Assembly (NCBI RefSeq): GCF_015557435.1
Contig: NZ_JADNOH010000090.1
Span: forward strand, 1 to 59,904
Direction of reading: 5' to 3'
Source of the DNA: Collinsella aerofaciens
Lineage (GTDB): Bacteria > Actinomycetota > Coriobacteriia > Coriobacteriales > Coriobacteriaceae
DNA length: 59,904 nucleotides
Every line of letters begins with the position of its first letter. Position 1 is the first letter of the stretch. Below, piece after piece: positions 25,465 to 31,529 of the stretch. The notes below the pieces were generated by a model, which had not been told where the DNA came from, did no database searches, and was given only the letters and a program-made list of their open reading frames with translations. The position numbers were made by a program, and so were the translations under genes.

Positions 25465-26184
25465 CTACAGCTGGCGCAGGTCTTCTTCCAGGCCCGTCTT
25501 GCTGTCGGTTTTTTCGTCGCGCATCTTGATGACGCGGGCGGGGACGCCGGCCACGACGGCGCCGGCGGGGACGTCCTCGACGCATACGGCGCCGGCAGCC
25601 ACAACGGCGCCCTTGCCCACACGCACGCCCTCCAGGACCACGGCGTTGGCGCCAATCATGACATCGTCCTCGATGATGACGGGCGTGGCGCTCGCGGGCT
25701 CAACGACGCCCGCAAGCACGGTGCCGGCGCCGATGTGGCAGTTCTTGCCCACGGTGGCGCGGCCGCCCAGCACGGCGCCCATATCGATCATGGAACCCTC
25801 GCCGATAACGGAGCCGATGTTGATGATGGCGCCCATCATGATGACGGCGCGGTCGCCGATCTCGACGCGGTCGCGGATAATCGCGCCAGGCTCGATGCGG
25901 GCGTTGATGCCCTTAAGGTCGAGCATGGGGACGGCGGAATTGCGGCAATCGTTCTCGACGTCGTAGTAGTCGATGGAATCGGCATTGGCGTCGAGGATGG
26001 CCTTGAGCTCGTCCCAGTCGCCAAAGACGGTCTTGCCGCGGCGGCCGCCGTAGACGTGTGCGTCGCCCCACTGGACCTTCATGCCGGGCTTCTCGCGGAC
26101 ATATAGCTTGACGGGCGTCTTCTTGGGCGCGGTGGCGATGTAATTGATAATCTCCTGTGCATCCATCTCGGCTGCGTTGCTCAT
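25465..26184 (-). CDS. dapH: Tetrahydrodipicolinate N-acetyltransferase DapH
   Basis: The 239-residue enzyme has an N-terminal helical domain and a left-handed beta-helix of hexapeptide repeats from about 90 to 215 ([23 protein letters not shown]). The ending [11 protein letters not shown] is typical. It belongs to the acetyl-CoA-dependent DapH type rather than the longer succinyl-type DapD. It makes N-acetyl-2-amino-6-oxopimelate for lysine and peptidoglycan. AAAGGAG precedes ATG. It is the last gene of the lysA-dapA-dapB-dapH operon. Confidence 0.9.
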
Positions 26185-26223: not shown

Positions 26224-26964
26224 TTAGGCAAACATGACCTGGTCGAAGGTGTAGAAGCCGGGGTCGCGGACGACGAGCTTCTGGGCGGCCGCCAGGGCGC
26301 CGTTGACGAAGATTTGTCGGCTCGTGGCGCGGTGCGTGAGTGTGACCTCTTCGTCCTGGCCAAAGAAACCAACCTCGTGCACGCCGGCGACGGTACCGCC
26401 GCGCAGCGAGTGCATGCCGATTTCCTTGGGGTCACGCGCGCCACACATGCCCTCGCGACCGTAGACGGGGTGATAGCCAGCCTCGGGCTCGGCCTCGACA
26501 ACGGCGTCAAGCAGCAGCTTGGCGGTGCCGCTGGGGGCGTCGACCTTTTGGTTGTGGTGTGTCTCGACGATCTCACAGTCAAAGCCGGGCAGCTCGCGTG
26601 TGGCCTGGGCCACCAGGTGACGCAGGGCGGCGATGCCGATGGAGTAGTTGCCCGAGTGCATGACGCGGGCGTTCTGGCCCAGCTCGCGCAGGCGGTCCAT
26701 CTGCTCGGGCGTATATCCCGTGGTGCCGGAAACGAGTGCGGCGCCCGTGCGCTCGACATAGGTGACAACGGCGTCAAAGGTCACGACGTTCGAGAAGTCG
26801 ATGATCACATCGGCCGCCGGGGCGCTCTCGAGCTCGGTCAGATCAAAGCCGATCTGGGCGACGATATCAAAGACGGGCTGACCGGCGGCATCGACAATGC
26901 CCTCCGCGGTGGTGCGGATGAGCGAGCCCATGCGGCCCGTTCCCATAATGACGGTCTTAATCAA
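26224..26964 (-). CDS. dapB: 4-hydroxy-tetrahydrodipicolinate reductase DapB
   Basis: The 246-residue protein has the NAD(P)-binding M-G-T-G-R-M-G near 7-13, D-F-S near 57, a G-T-T-G-Y motif near 82, H-S-G-N-Y-S-I-G near 106 and the catalytic E-T-H-H-N-Q-K-V-D-A-P-S-G-T-A near 136-150. It reduces the DapA product. The start is probably TTG at 26964, overlapping the dapA stop by 8 bases (TTGATTAA), with AGGGAG about 9 bases upstream. That arrangement implies translational coupling. Confidence 0.9.
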   Translation of the reverse strand: MIKTVIMGTGRMGSLIRTTAEGIVDAAGQPVFDIVAQIGFDLTELESAPAADVIIDFSNVVTFDAVVTYVERTGAALVSGTTGYTPEQMDRLRELGQNARVMHSGNYSIGIAALRHLVAQATRELPGFDCEIVETHHNQKVDAPSGTAKLLLDAVVEAEPEAGYHPVYGREGMCGARDPKEIGMHSLRGGTVAGVHEVGFFGQDEEVTLTHRATSRQIFVNGALAAAQKLVVRDPGFYTFDQVMFA

Positions 26965-27847
26965 GCAGACCAGCTCCCTTCAGAGCATCGGTGAGTGTGG
27001 CACGTGTATCGTCGGCCATGGGGCACAGCGGCATGCGATAGTTTGCCTCGATCATACCCATCTGGGCGAGCGCTTCCTTAACGGGGATGGGGTTGACTTC
27101 GCTAAAGAGGGCGTTGATGAGCGGCTGACCGGCAATCTGGATCTCGCGGGCGCGCTCCACGTCACCGTCCAGGTAGGCGCGGCACATGTCGTGTACGAGC
27201 TGCGGCTGCACGTCGGCCCACACGCTGATGGTGCCCGAGGCGCCCAGGCTCATGAGCGGCACGGTAAGCGCGTCTTCGCCCGAATACATACGGAAGTCGT
27301 CGGACAGCAGGTGCGCGATCTTGGCGGCATAGGCGACATTCCCCGAGGCCTCCTTGATGCCCATGATGTTGGGATGTGCTGCCAGGCGCTCGACATTGCG
27401 CTCGCTGATACCGCAGCCGCAACGGCCGGGGATATTGTACAGGATGCAGGGGATGTCCACGGCATCTGCCACAGTTTTAAAGTGCTGGTAGATGCCCTCC
27501 TCGTTGGACTTGTTGTAGTAGGGGGTGATGAGCAGCAGACCGTCGGCGCCCAGGCCCTGGTAGGTGAGCGACTTGGTGAGCATCGTCTGCGTGGAGTTGG
27601 AGCCCGAGCCGGCGATGACGGGGATGCGGCCTGCGACCTGCTTGACCACGGCGGCAACGACGGAGTTGTCCTCGTCATCGGTCATCGTGGCGCTCTCGCC
27701 GGTGGTGCCCAAGGTGAGGATGGCGTCGGTGCCATTCTGCAGGTGGAAATCGACCAGGCGTTCAAGAGCATCAAAGTCGACGCTGCCGTCCTTCTTAAAC
27801 GGGGTGACGAGGGCGACGATTGAGCCCTCGAGGTTACGGACATCCAT
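26957..27847 (-). CDS. dapA: 4-hydroxy-tetrahydrodipicolinate synthase DapA (domain or internally started protein)
   Basis: This 296-residue segment is a full-length DapA. It has A-L-V-T-P-F near 12, the substrate motif G-T-T-G-E-S-A-T near 44, Y-Y-N-K near 107, Y-N-I-P-G-R near 133 and the Schiff-base lysine in G-I-K-E-A-S-G near 161. It condenses pyruvate with aspartate semialdehyde. ATG 27847 has GAAGGAG 7 bases upstream, so a free enzyme could be made from the internal start of the fused frame. It is listed separately because either product may exist. Confidence 0.8.
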   Translation of the reverse strand: MDVRNLEGSIVALVTPFKKDGSVDFDALERLVDFHLQNGTDAILTLGTTGESATMTDDEDNSVVAAVVKQVAGRIPVIAGSGSNSTQTMLTKSLTYQGLGADGLLLITPYYNKSNEEGIYQHFKTVADAVDIPCILYNIPGRCGCGISERNVERLAAHPNIMGIKEASGNVAYAAKIAHLLSDDFRMYSGEDALTVPLMSLGASGTISVWADVQPQLVHDMCRAYLDGDVERAREIQIAGQPLINALFSEVNPIPVKEALAQMGMIEANYRMPLCPMADDTRATLTDALKGAGLLD

Positions 27848-29266
27848 ATTCTTCTCCTTCGCTTCCGCGATCTGGATGCGTTTATTCCATTGGGCGGCGA
27901 CGGCCAGGCGCTCGCCCTGGGCGCGACGGCGGGCGCTTTCGGCGCGTGACTTGGCCAGCAGCTCGCGGCCGCACGGAAGGACGTCGAGCGTGGCAAAGTA
28001 GTCGCCCGGGCGCTCAGCGCGTCGAATGAGGTCGGCGGATCCGTCGGGGCGCAGCAATACCTCGGCAGAACGCAGGCGTCCATTGTAGTTATAGCCCATG
28101 GAGTAGCCGTGCGCGCCGGTATCGTGGATCACGAGCAAGTCGCCCATATCGATCTGCGGCAGCTCGCGGTCGATGGAGAACTTGTCGTTGTTCTCGCACA
28201 GGTTGCCCGTGATATCGTACGTGTTCGTGACGGGGGCTGCGGTCTTGTCGGCGCCACCCGGCTGGCCCATCACCGTGATGTGGTGGTAAGCGCCATACAT
28301 GGCGGGACGAATCAGGTCGACGGCACTTGCGTCCACGCCGATATAGTCCTTGTAGATCTGCTTTTCGTGGATGGCCTTGGTGACCAGGCATCCGTAGGGG
28401 CCCATCATAAAGCGGCCCATCTCGGTGCAGATCGCCACATCGCCCATGCCGGCGGGAACCAGAATCTCGTCGTAGGCTGCGTGCACGCCCTCGCCGATGG
28501 CGTGGATGTCGTTGGCCTGCTGCTCGGGCAGATAGGGGATGCCCACGCCACCGGACAGGTTAATGAAGGCGACATGAGCGCCCGTCTCGCGCTCCAAGCG
28601 CACGGCAAGCTCAAAGAGGATGCGTGCGAGCTTGGGGTAGTAGTCGTTAGTGACGGTGTTGCTGGCAAGGAAGGCGTGGATGCCAAAATTCTCGGCGCCC
28701 TTGGCCTTGAGTACGCGGAAGGCTTCGAAGAGCTGCTCGGTGGTCATGCCGTACTTGGAGTCGCCGGGGTTGTCCATAATGCCATTGGAAAGCTGGAACA
28801 GACCGCCCGGGTTAAAGCGGCAGCTGACCGTCTTGGGAATGGGGCCCGCGACGCGCTCGTAGAACTCGATGTGGCTGATGTCGTCGAAGTTGACGATGGC
28901 GCCCAACTTGTCGGCAAGCTCAAAGTCGGCCGCTGGCGTATCGTTGGACGAGAACATGATGTCGTGTCCCGTGATGCCCAGTGAGCGGGCGATCATGAGC
29001 TCGGTATAGCTCGAGCAATCGCAGCCGCAGCCGTATTCGTTGAGAATGGAGATAAGTGCTGGGTTGGGGTTGGCCTTGACGGCAAAGTACTCCTTAAACC
29101 CCGGGTTCCATGCAAAGGCGTCGCGCACCTCTTGCATGTTGCGGCGGATGCCCGCCTCGTCGTATAGATGAAACGGCGTGGGGAACTGCTCGACGATGTG
29201 CTCTAGCGTCTCCTTGTCCACAAACGGCTGCTTTGCCGCATATGCCTCGTTGGGGGTCAATGCCAT
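26957..29266 (-). CDS. lysA: Continuous LysA-DapA fusion frame (diaminopimelate decarboxylase plus dihydrodipicolinate synthase)
   Basis: One uninterrupted frame of 769 residues covers two enzymes. Residues 1 to about 430 are PLP-dependent diaminopimelate decarboxylase: the PLP lysine is in Y-F-A-V-K-A-N-P-N-P near 60, with S-G-G-V-G-I near 236 and G-A-H-G-Y-S near 394. A charged linker of about 45 residues follows. Residues 474-769 are complete DapA. No stop codon separates them. A good internal AAGGAG before residue 474 means separate DapA synthesis is also possible. A lysine riboswitch lies upstream. Confidence 0.8.
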   Translation of the reverse strand: MALTPNEAYAAKQPFVDKETLEHIVEQFPTPFHLYDEAGIRRNMQEVRDAFAWNPGFKEYFAVKANPNPALISILNEYGCGCDCSSYTELMIARSLGITGHDIMFSSNDTPAADFELADKLGAIVNFDDISHIEFYERVAGPIPKTVSCRFNPGGLFQLSNGIMDNPGDSKYGMTTEQLFEAFRVLKAKGAENFGIHAFLASNTVTNDYYPKLARILFELAVRLERETGAHVAFINLSGGVGIPYLPEQQANDIHAIGEGVHAAYDEILVPAGMGDVAICTEMGRFMMGPYGCLVTKAIHEKQIYKDYIGVDASAVDLIRPAMYGAYHHITVMGQPGGADKTAAPVTNTYDITGNLCENNDKFSIDRELPQIDMGDLLVIHDTGAHGYSMGYNYNGRLRSAEVLLRPDGSADLIRRAERPGDYFATLDVLPCGRELLAKSRAESARRRAQGERLAVAAQWNKRIQIAEAKEKNMDVRNLEGSIVALVTPFKKDGSVDFDALERLVDFHLQNGTDAILTLGTTGESATMTDDEDNSVVAAVVKQVAGRIPVIAGSGSNSTQTMLTKSLTYQGLGADGLLLITPYYNKSNEEGIYQHFKTVADAVDIPCILYNIPGRCGCGISERNVERLAAHPNIMGIKEASGNVAYAAKIAHLLSDDFRMYSGEDALTVPLMSLGASGTISVWADVQPQLVHDMCRAYLDGDVERAREIQIAGQPLINALFSEVNPIPVKEALAQMGMIEANYRMPLCPMADDTRATLTDALKGAGLLD

Positions 29267-29334: not shown

Positions 29335-29496
29335 CCGGATAGCGCTCCCGCATTGCTGCAGACAGTCCTGCGGGTGTTTCCCGCAGGCCCACCAGGTCGT
29401 TCGTGCCCGAAAAACCCAGTTCGGCGGGTTTCGCCTCCCCGCAGGGTCAAAGTCTGCCGACTCGCCCGCGGCTCTTCGTGCCCGCGCCTCTATCAA
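29335..29496 (-). ncRNA. Lysine riboswitch (L-box) upstream of lysA
   Basis: Read on the minus strand, the segment opens with GATAGAGGCGCG and has AAGAG soon after. It continues with GGGGAGGCGAAACCCGCCGAA and closes with GGACTGTC and GGGAGCGCTATCC. These match the order of conserved blocks in the lysine riboswitch, including the P1 pairing GATAG/CTATC. The aptamer ends about 70 bases before the lysA start. Its 3' CGCTATCC, a second CGCTATGC at 29315-29322 and GGATAGCG beside the SD (29280-29287) can pair in exclusive ways, suggesting translational control. Confidence 0.85.
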
Positions 29497-29645
29497 GTGG
29501 TAAAGACCCTACCACGTTGCACTTTACCAAACAAGAGTATTCGTATATAACGTTTAAAAAATGCAGGGATATGCTGGAAATAAGGGTGCGACAATCTTGC
29601 GGCACAATAAATAACAACCGACGTGCACCTATGAAAGGAACCTTT

Positions 29646-30833
29646 ATGACCGAGCTCCAAGAACTCCGTCGTTATCGTCGCGACTTGCATCGCATTCCGG
29701 AGCTCGACTTCGATCTTCCGCAAACTATCGCCTATATCGAGGGTGTGCTCGATTCGCTTGCCTGCGAGGTGACCCATCCGTGTCCGAGCTGCGTCTGCGC
29801 CTTCTTCGATGCCGGTGTAGGCGCTGCGCACGCCACGGCGATTCGTGCCGACATGGACGCCCTGCCCATCGCGGAGGCAACGGGTGTGGATTTCGCCTCG
29901 ACGCATCCCGCCCAGATGCACGCTTGCGGCCACGACGGCCACATGGCCATGGCGCTCGCGGCAGCAACTTATGTCGATCGTACGATTCGTGAGCAGCCGG
30001 GCGCCATCGGGCGCAACGTGCTCTTTGTGTTTCAGCCTGCCGAGGAGACGACCGGTGGCGCTAAGACGGTATGCGAGAGCGGCGTGTTCGAGCGTTACGG
30101 GGCCGATCACATCTTCGGCTTCCATGTGTGGCCCGATTTGCCTGCCGGCACGTTGGCGAGCTGCTCCGGTCCGCTGCTGGCGCGCTCGAGCGAGACGCAC
30201 ATTCATATCCATGGCGCGAGCATCCATATCGCCAAGACCTTCGGCGTTCCGGTCGAGGAGTCGCACGATGCCGCGCTGGCGGCGGCCAAGTTCTTTGTTG
30301 CCGAACGCGAGCTGATGGACGAGCTGGGTGCCGACGAGCCCTGCATCGGCAAGTTCGGTCTGCTCCAGGCCGGCACCGTCTGCAATGCGGTGGCGGGGGA
30401 GGCCCATGTCGCCGGCAGCTTGCGCGTGTTTACGGACGACATGTTCGACCGTGCGCGCGAGGGTGTGCGCCGCGTGCTGGACGAGGCCTGCGCCGCAACG
30501 GGTTGCACGTACGATCTCGACTTTGCCGAGGGCTACCCGCCAGTCGATAACGACCCCGAGCTGTTTGCCGGCGTCGCGCCGGCCCTGCCCGAGCTGCAGC
30601 TTGTGAACGAGCCACTGCTCATTGCCGAGGATTTCGCGTTCTACCAGCGCCATCTGCCGGGCGTGTTCTTCTTATTGGGCACGGGCGTGCCGGAGGGCCA
30701 AGACAATCCGAGTGACGCCGAGGGTTGTCCCGCCTATGCCACCAGCGCCCTGCATACCGACACCATGCTCTTTGACGAGGAAATCCTGCTCAAAGGGCTC
30801 GATGTCTACAAACGATTGCTTTCGCTTAGCTAA
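29646..30833 (+). CDS. M20-family amidohydrolase, probable N-acetyl-diaminopimelate deacetylase
   Basis: The 395-residue protein has the M20D pattern: R-R-D-L-H-R-I-P-E near 11, R-A-D-M-D-A-L-P near 68-75, the metal motif H-A-C-G-H-D-G-H near 94-101 and P-A-E-E-T-T-G-G-A near 134. Relatives include hippurate hydrolases and N-acetyl-DAP deacetylase. Its position divergent from lysA and close to dapH favours the deacetylase, which the acetylase branch requires. ATG 29646 follows AAAGGAA. A generic N-acyl amino acid hydrolase is the alternative. Confidence 0.78.
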   Translation: MTELQELRRYRRDLHRIPELDFDLPQTIAYIEGVLDSLACEVTHPCPSCVCAFFDAGVGAAHATAIRADMDALPIAEATGVDFASTHPAQMHACGHDGHMAMALAAATYVDRTIREQPGAIGRNVLFVFQPAEETTGGAKTVCESGVFERYGADHIFGFHVWPDLPAGTLASCSGPLLARSSETHIHIHGASIHIAKTFGVPVEESHDAALAAAKFFVAERELMDELGADEPCIGKFGLLQAGTVCNAVAGEAHVAGSLRVFTDDMFDRAREGVRRVLDEACAATGCTYDLDFAEGYPPVDNDPELFAGVAPALPELQLVNEPLLIAEDFAFYQRHLPGVFFLLGTGVPEGQDNPSDAEGCPAYATSALHTDTMLFDEEILLKGLDVYKRLLSLS

Positions 30834-30934: not shown

Positions 30935-31216
30935 ATGATTGCATCCTATAAAGATGAAGATACCGAACGCTTTGCCATGGGTACGCGGGTCAGGAAGTTC
31001 ATTCCTTTTGAGCGGGTCGCATTGAGGAAGATCCGCCAACTGCAGGTCTGCGCTTCGCTTGATGATCTTCGCATTCCGCCAGGCAACCGCCTTGAAGCAT
31101 TGAAGGGCGATCGCGCCGGTCAATACAGTATTCGCGTTAACGAACGCTATCGGGTCTGCTTTGAGTGGAGACAGGGGATGGCTTGGAATGTCGAAATCGT
31201 CGATTATCACAAATGA
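30935..31216 (+). CDS. higB: HigB-type toxin (RelE/ParE superfamily)
   Basis: The 93-residue protein has the HigB (PF05015-type) pattern: I-P-F-E-R-V-A-L-R-K-I-R-Q-L near 23, L-R-I-P-P-G-N-R-L-E-A-L-K-G near 45-58 and Q-Y-S-I-R-V-N-E-R-Y-R-V-C-F near 63-76. Such toxins are ribosome-dependent mRNA nucleases. The site before the ATG is weak. The toxin gene comes first and the antitoxin gene overlaps its end by 29 bases, the usual HigBA order. Confidence 0.85.
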   Translation: MIASYKDEDTERFAMGTRVRKFIPFERVALRKIRQLQVCASLDDLRIPPGNRLEALKGDRAGQYSIRVNERYRVCFEWRQGMAWNVEIVDYHK

Positions 31217-31529
31217 GGAGGCTGTGGCCGATTTGCTGTCACCGGTGACTCCTGGCGAGCTTCTCAAAGAGGAATTTCTTGTTCCTATGGGTATTTCTCA
31301 ATATCGTCTTGCGAAAGAGACCGGGATTCCGGCTCAGCGTATCGGGCAGATTGTCTTGGGAAGACGTCGTGTGACGGCTGACACCGATCTTCGTCTTTGC
31401 CGCTACTTTGGCCTGACGGATGGTTATTGGCTGCGCGCGCAGATGGCGTTTGATCTGGAGGCCGAGAAAAGGCGGATTAAACCTGAGCTCGACAAGATTG
31501 TTCCTGTCCAGCAGGCCATCGCATTGTAG
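31188..31529 (+). CDS. higA: HigA-type antitoxin (XRE/HTH)
   Basis: The 113-residue protein has T-P-G-E-L-L-K-E-E-F near 21 and an HTH region I-S-Q-Y-R-L-A-K-E-T-G-I-P-A-Q-R-I-G-Q near 36-54. R-R-V-T-A-D-T-D-L-R-L-C-R-Y-F-G-L follows, a classic HigA (VapI-like) sequence. It should neutralise HigB and repress the operon through the palindromes upstream of higB. ATG 31188 lies inside the end of higB. An upstream in-frame TTG at 31161 is less likely. Confidence 0.87.
   Translation: MSKSSIITNEEAVADLLSPVTPGELLKEEFLVPMGISQYRLAKETGIPAQRIGQIVLGRRRVTADTDLRLCRYFGLTDGYWLRAQMAFDLEAEKRRIKPELDKIVPVQQAIAL

Follow-up and report, generated by a model that had tools for sequence, protein, structure and literature searches.

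A LysA-DapA fusion of the Collinsella aerofaciens clade, probably made together with a nested free DapA

DapA and LysA are the first and last enzymes of the branch leading from aspartate-semialdehyde to lysine, and in Collinsella aerofaciens both appear to be encoded without a stop codon between them. We asked whether this locus makes a bifunctional LysA-DapA protein, both a fusion and a free DapA, or neither, the missing stop being an error. In the window (the whole 59,904-nt stretch analyzed, contig NZ_JADNOH010000090.1), the minus strand from 29266 to 26957 reads as 769 sense codons and a stop, in a single uninterrupted frame that begins with the ATG at 29266. Pfam and NCBIfam assign a pyridoxal-decarboxylase/LysA domain to residues 15 to 424 and a DHDPS/DapA domain to residues 479 to 763, which confirms the original prediction of one LysA-DapA frame of this length and places it on the minus strand. 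The fusion has a calculated mass of 83.8 kDa and residues 474 to 769 one of 31.7 kDa, which match the 84- and 32-kDa products anticipated there. The closest named matches to the gene are in Collinsella aerofaciens strains (97 to 98%).

The frame is the first gene of an operon. Its leader holds a lysine riboswitch (RF00168; 29332 to 29500, minus strand) some 65 nt ahead of the lysA start, dapB (26224 to 26964, minus strand) follows from a TTG start that overlaps the dapA stop, and the next operon gene is dapD/dapH (25465 to 26184, minus strand), for tetrahydrodipicolinate N-acetyltransferase. We found no second LysA in the host genome, where the LysA half of the fusion is the sole LysA-like gene, and only one other DapA-like gene, a 25% identical paralogue. 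Divergent from the operon lies a gene for an M20-type amidohydrolase (29403 to 30833, plus strand), which may serve the same acetylase pathway as N-acetyl-DAP deacetylase; its longest frame begins within the opposite-strand riboswitch region, so the true start is probably further in. Two adjoining small genes at 30935 to 31529 (plus strand) resemble, in translated sequence, a HigB/HigA toxin-antitoxin pair.

Both halves keep their active-site residues. In an alignment (A2) in which in-frame relatives were read through their stops for alignment purposes only, the LysA part comprises residues 1 to 425 (27992 to 29266, minus strand). It scored 270.2 bits against TIGR01048, under the curated cut-off of 297.9, and we count this shortfall against our overall explanation; TIGR01048 is the best-scoring equivalog over this half, and the best relatives of solved structure are DAP decarboxylases. 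Residues K64, H197, E282-x-G284-R285, R320/P321/Y324, C357-E358, and N393-Y394-N395 are invariant in A2; we take K64 to be the PLP lysine and ExGR, RPxxY, CE, and NYN to be DAP decarboxylase motifs. The LysA half is thereby predicted to be a diaminopimelate decarboxylase with its PLP and substrate motifs kept. Outside Coriobacteriia, its nearest relatives are LysA proteins of Lachnospiraceae (70 to 75%), whose matched loci have no dapA nearby; with its score below the cut-off, this suggests a divergent gut LysA subgroup, perhaps moved by horizontal transfer. The DapA part (26957 to 27847, minus strand, stop included; residues 474 to 769), whose start at Met474 was set by alignment, has its own ATG at 27847 to 27845 and scored 337.4 bits against TIGR00674, over the curated cut-off of 206.15. 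The catalytic residues, T44, Y107, Y133, R138, and K161 in Escherichia coli DapA (PMC5109050), are present as T521, Y584, Y610, R615, and K638 and are invariant in A2. Strong purifying selection acts on both halves (omega, 0.06 to 0.10).

Comparison of the junction across related genomes, which the original prediction had proposed, revealed an open frame in 22 of 23 genomes of the C. aerofaciens clade, sampled at one genome per species. All 22 have an identical spacing of 210 nt, and one of them (G002) is a one-contig assembly. At fourfold sites, the median pairwise difference among the clade genomes is 18%. In all non-clade relatives that were read (other Collinsella, Enorma, Olsenella, and Thermophilibacter), a stop closes lysA and a separate dapA comes after it, as is the case in distant Kiritimatiellales/Verrucomicrobia, and the separate dapA stands in any of the three frames relative to lysA. 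In the nearest non-clade relative (G014, locus L105), lysA ends "...GRQLLNSLKNNS*", five codons follow, and the dapA ATG is in frame. No fused frame was found outside the clade in 298 Coriobacteriia genomes, where each match to both halves contains at least one stop, or in 296 sampled Actinomycetota genomes at a strict E-value that divergent fusions would escape. By these searches, which covered Coriobacteriia and Actinomycetota and leave room for fusions in other phyla, the LysA-DapA fusion is confined to the C. aerofaciens clade. The unfused lysA-stop-dapA neighbors in Coriobacteriia mark the ancestral arrangement, and the fusion most likely originated when lysA lost its stop in an operon of tightly packed genes.

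Every outgroup carries a stop, as would be seen had a sequencing or assembly error erased one here, but the open frame and the 210-nt spacing are shared by 22 independent assemblies, the one-contig genome included, and the linker is under selection at the protein level (see below). We give an error practically no credence, and these assemblies exclude the sequencing artefact that the prediction had named as a possible refutation. A junction stop in relatives, the other refutation it had named, is present in every relative read outside the clade and in one clade member, G006, and is lacking in the other clade members.

Two side observations concern lysine genes elsewhere in the genus. About 10 of 45 genus genomes, mostly near complete, are without a close LysA-DapA match (among them G016, G018, G023, G024, G026, G028, G029, G039, and G044), which suggests that the lysine pathway has been lost repeatedly in Collinsella. 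Decayed remnants of a second, approximately 67% identical lysA-dapA(-dapD) locus are found in G009 (L117) and G004 (L118); they lie at about 1300 to 5100 of L118, in pieces about 3.2 kb apart with a gene for a PRD/EIIA-type (LevR-like) regulator between them.

The linker (27848 to 27991, minus strand; residues 426 to 473) had been described as a charged segment of about 45 residues. Its charge was borne out (11 K/R and 6 D/E in 48 residues), while alignment with unfused relatives showed that it is in part LysA's own C terminus: the native LysA tail makes up the first 15 or so residues, to about 443, and is followed by about 30 additional ones. Across the 23 genomes, codons 426 to 472 show 34 synonymous changes, 16 nonsynonymous changes, and 1 nonsense change. 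This corresponds to an omega of about 0.2, against an N/S ratio of about 2.3 expected without selection, and with each of three transition/transversion settings the probability of 34 or more synonymous changes is at most 3e-7. For these counts, codons were joined by nearest difference and no tree was used, a simple method set against a large effect. Past the native LysA end, codons 444 to 473 gave 22 synonymous and 13 nonsynonymous changes (omega, 0.23), and the linker DNA read in the two wrong forward frames gave values of 1.25 and 3.0. Synonymous change per codon is alike in the linker (34/47), the LysA core (271/400), and DapA (195/297), so the DNA itself is not frozen, and variation in the untranslated leader is without codon periodicity (variable sites per codon phase: 11, 8, and 8). 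The N:S ratio of the linker exceeds that of the domains (Fisher P = 0.02).

Chance does not account for the open frame, which 22 of 23 species-level genomes have in common and whose linker evolves under purifying selection. A translated linker without a stop means that translation must run on into DapA, and on this pattern of codon change the fusion protein is very probably made. The lack of indels in the linker was dropped as evidence, as the untranslated leader is nearly as indel-free. We also set aside a derivation of the linker from elsewhere in the genome, for which only short chance matches were found. In the predicted structure, the two barrels are mostly confident and residues 431 to 466 form a helix of low confidence; the C-terminal part of LysA and the linker are poorly predicted, so the fold was left out of the argument about assembly.

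A free DapA is the other product that the locus could make. The internal Shine-Dalgarno sequence of dapA, AAGGAG (27854 to 27859, minus strand), ends 6 nt before the DapA ATG, and its strength, noted in the original prediction, was confirmed: at -9.3 kcal/mol it is by far the strongest before any in-frame ATG, the best of the 23 others reaching -5.9 kcal/mol. All 23 clade genomes retain both the ATG and AAGGAG. The invariance of the AAG-GAG codon pair is not significant in itself, as 10 of 26 codons for conserved Lys and 13 of 34 for conserved Glu show the same fixation. Taken together, the strength of this site, the retention of ATG and AAGGAG, and the state of the locus in G006 make a second, 31.7-kDa product likely, and the proposal of a fusion plus free DapA is judged probable: a free 32-kDa DapA would be made beside the 84-kDa protein.

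In G006 (locus L087), a TAG at linker codon 439 leaves a 438-residue LysA of about the ancestral length. The dapA of this genome is intact, its product is 99.3% identical to the DapA of the window, and window-type linker continues downstream of the TAG. In a tree of LysA and DapA codons with the linker left out, G006 is sister to the window genome with 100/100 support. Most simply, the break is a recent loss of the fusion, although a base-calling error in this one assembly could account for the TAG. A stop that is ancestral in G006, with the fusion having arisen more than once, would be compatible with the unresolved backbone of the gene tree, but the sister relationship to a fused genome at 100/100 and the same linker past the TAG make it very improbable. 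With the TAG in place, DapA must be started internally in G006 unless the stop is read through; if real, the TAG shows that the dapA Shine-Dalgarno sequence is able to start translation by itself and, with dapA intact, that the fusion is dispensable, a point we count against our overall explanation. Of the bifunctional enzyme originally proposed, then, a translated fusion is upheld by the frame open in 22 of 23 genomes and by linker constraint, and a requirement for the fusion is not, given the TAG in G006.

Control by lysine probably acts through the riboswitch. The riboswitch scored 77.9 bits with its covariance model, against a gathering threshold of 30 and over the full model length, and a scan of 16 clade loci found it in each, while 4 unfused relatives carry it as well. 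In DapA, His or Glu at position 56 (E. coli numbering) marks lysine-inhibited enzymes, and Lys or Arg marks insensitive ones (PMC5109050). The positions of E. coli His56, His53, and Glu84 are occupied by D533, D530, and T561 in the fusion; the allosteric marker is thus absent, a subtype trait that is not required for membership in the DapA family, and the rule as cited is silent on Asp. With a lysine riboswitch and a DapA that is without the lysine-binding histidines, end-product control is probably exerted on the mRNA, and DapA itself is probably insensitive to lysine. As the marker residues are missing, we discounted feedback of lysine on the fused DapA.

These results are best explained by a lineage-specific LysA-DapA fusion of the C. 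aerofaciens clade, likely with a nested free DapA, that is repressed through the riboswitch and whose join is tolerated or mildly useful; we consider this highly probable. The clade's ancestor would have lost the stop of lysA in a riboswitch-controlled lysA-dapA-dapB-dapD operon, and the frame would have been extended by about 30 codons into the adjoining in-frame dapA. Initiation at lysA would then yield the 84-kDa LysA-DapA protein, initiation at the Shine-Dalgarno sequence and ATG that dapA has kept would most likely yield free 32-kDa DapA too, and lysine would repress both through the leader. We infer that the fusion and free DapA both accumulate, that each half of the fused enzyme is active, with LysA as a dimer and DapA as a tetramer, and that the join, if more than tolerated, is mildly useful in fixing stoichiometry rather than serving as a channeling device. 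One point against this explanation is that LysA dimers and DapA tetramers could cross-link into polymers.

Whether the fusion is selected or merely tolerated divides this explanation into two sub-cases. The fusion may be made and yet be a neutral by-product of stop loss in a compact operon, linker selection merely keeping the protein soluble and harmless while the work falls to free DapA. The one clean reversion, in G006, the linker N:S ratio above that of the domains, the strong internal Shine-Dalgarno sequence, and the nonconsecutive LysA and DapA steps all agree with neutrality, to which we give close to an even chance, whereas retention in 22 of 23 species despite 18% median divergence at fourfold sites and a linker omega not near 1 speak against it. 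Alternatively, the fusion may have a selected function, either a fixed LysA:DapA stoichiometry or a mixed arrangement in which LysA dimers are surrounded by DapA chains both fused and free. Constraint on the linker as protein, clade-wide retention, and the retained internal start argue for such a function, but the fusion was lost in the sister species, there is no consecutive intermediate to channel, and a DapA without lysine-binding His (D530 and D533) is not expected to provide local product feedback; we hold a selected function to be possible, with the balance of chances somewhat against it. That fused and free DapA from one transcript and one frame form a ratio-setting mixed complex that is selectively maintained seems unlikely. 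Substrate channeling was set aside, as the two steps are not consecutive. Constraint and retention speak for a possible advantage of the fusion, reversion and nonconsecutive steps speak against a large one, and the built-in dosage effect suggested in the original prediction is hypothetical.

With an unfused ancestral arrangement, graded relatives, and one natural reversion, this young fusion offers a tractable case for asking whether stop-loss operon fusions are selected or just tolerated. It also poses an annotation risk: pipelines may call the gene LysA only or DapA only, and a single name may wrongly score Collinsella as being without the other enzyme. We found no earlier description of a LysA-DapA fusion in the literature and family libraries searched, a coverage with most subscription journals outside it.

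Among the known systems close to it is the bifunctional aspartate kinase/DAP decarboxylase LysC-LysA (NCBIfam NF006515/PRK08961), which also joins LysA to an enzyme from early in the lysine route and so an early with the last step. In LysC-LysA, however, aspartokinase is N-terminal to LysA, whereas in the present fusion LysA stands at the N terminus with DapA as its partner; the fusion matches NF006515 through its LysA half only (176.8 bits; cut-off, 802), and a Pfam scan found no aspartokinase domain in it. The aspartokinase-homoserine dehydrogenase fusion of ThrA/MetL is old, widespread, and functional, in contrast to the LysA-DapA fusion, which is young and limited to a single clade. ThrA/MetL likewise consists of fused enzymes of aspartate-family biosynthesis (PMC1885841). 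The Coriobacteriales Atopobium parvulum and Slackia heliotrinireducens have an unfused lysA-dapA-dapB(-dapD) operon with a lysine riboswitch (PMC5584792), which shares gene order, host order, and riboswitch with our locus and represents the ancestral arrangement; lysA and dapA are listed there as separate genes and are joined here. For one frame giving two products, the parallels are Cas11b (PMC11899642) and the Ms6 endolysin (PMC3111421), in which an in-frame internal start is reported, on experimental grounds, to yield a second, shorter product; at lysA-dapA, the free DapA is inferred, and the short product would be a complete ancestral gene.
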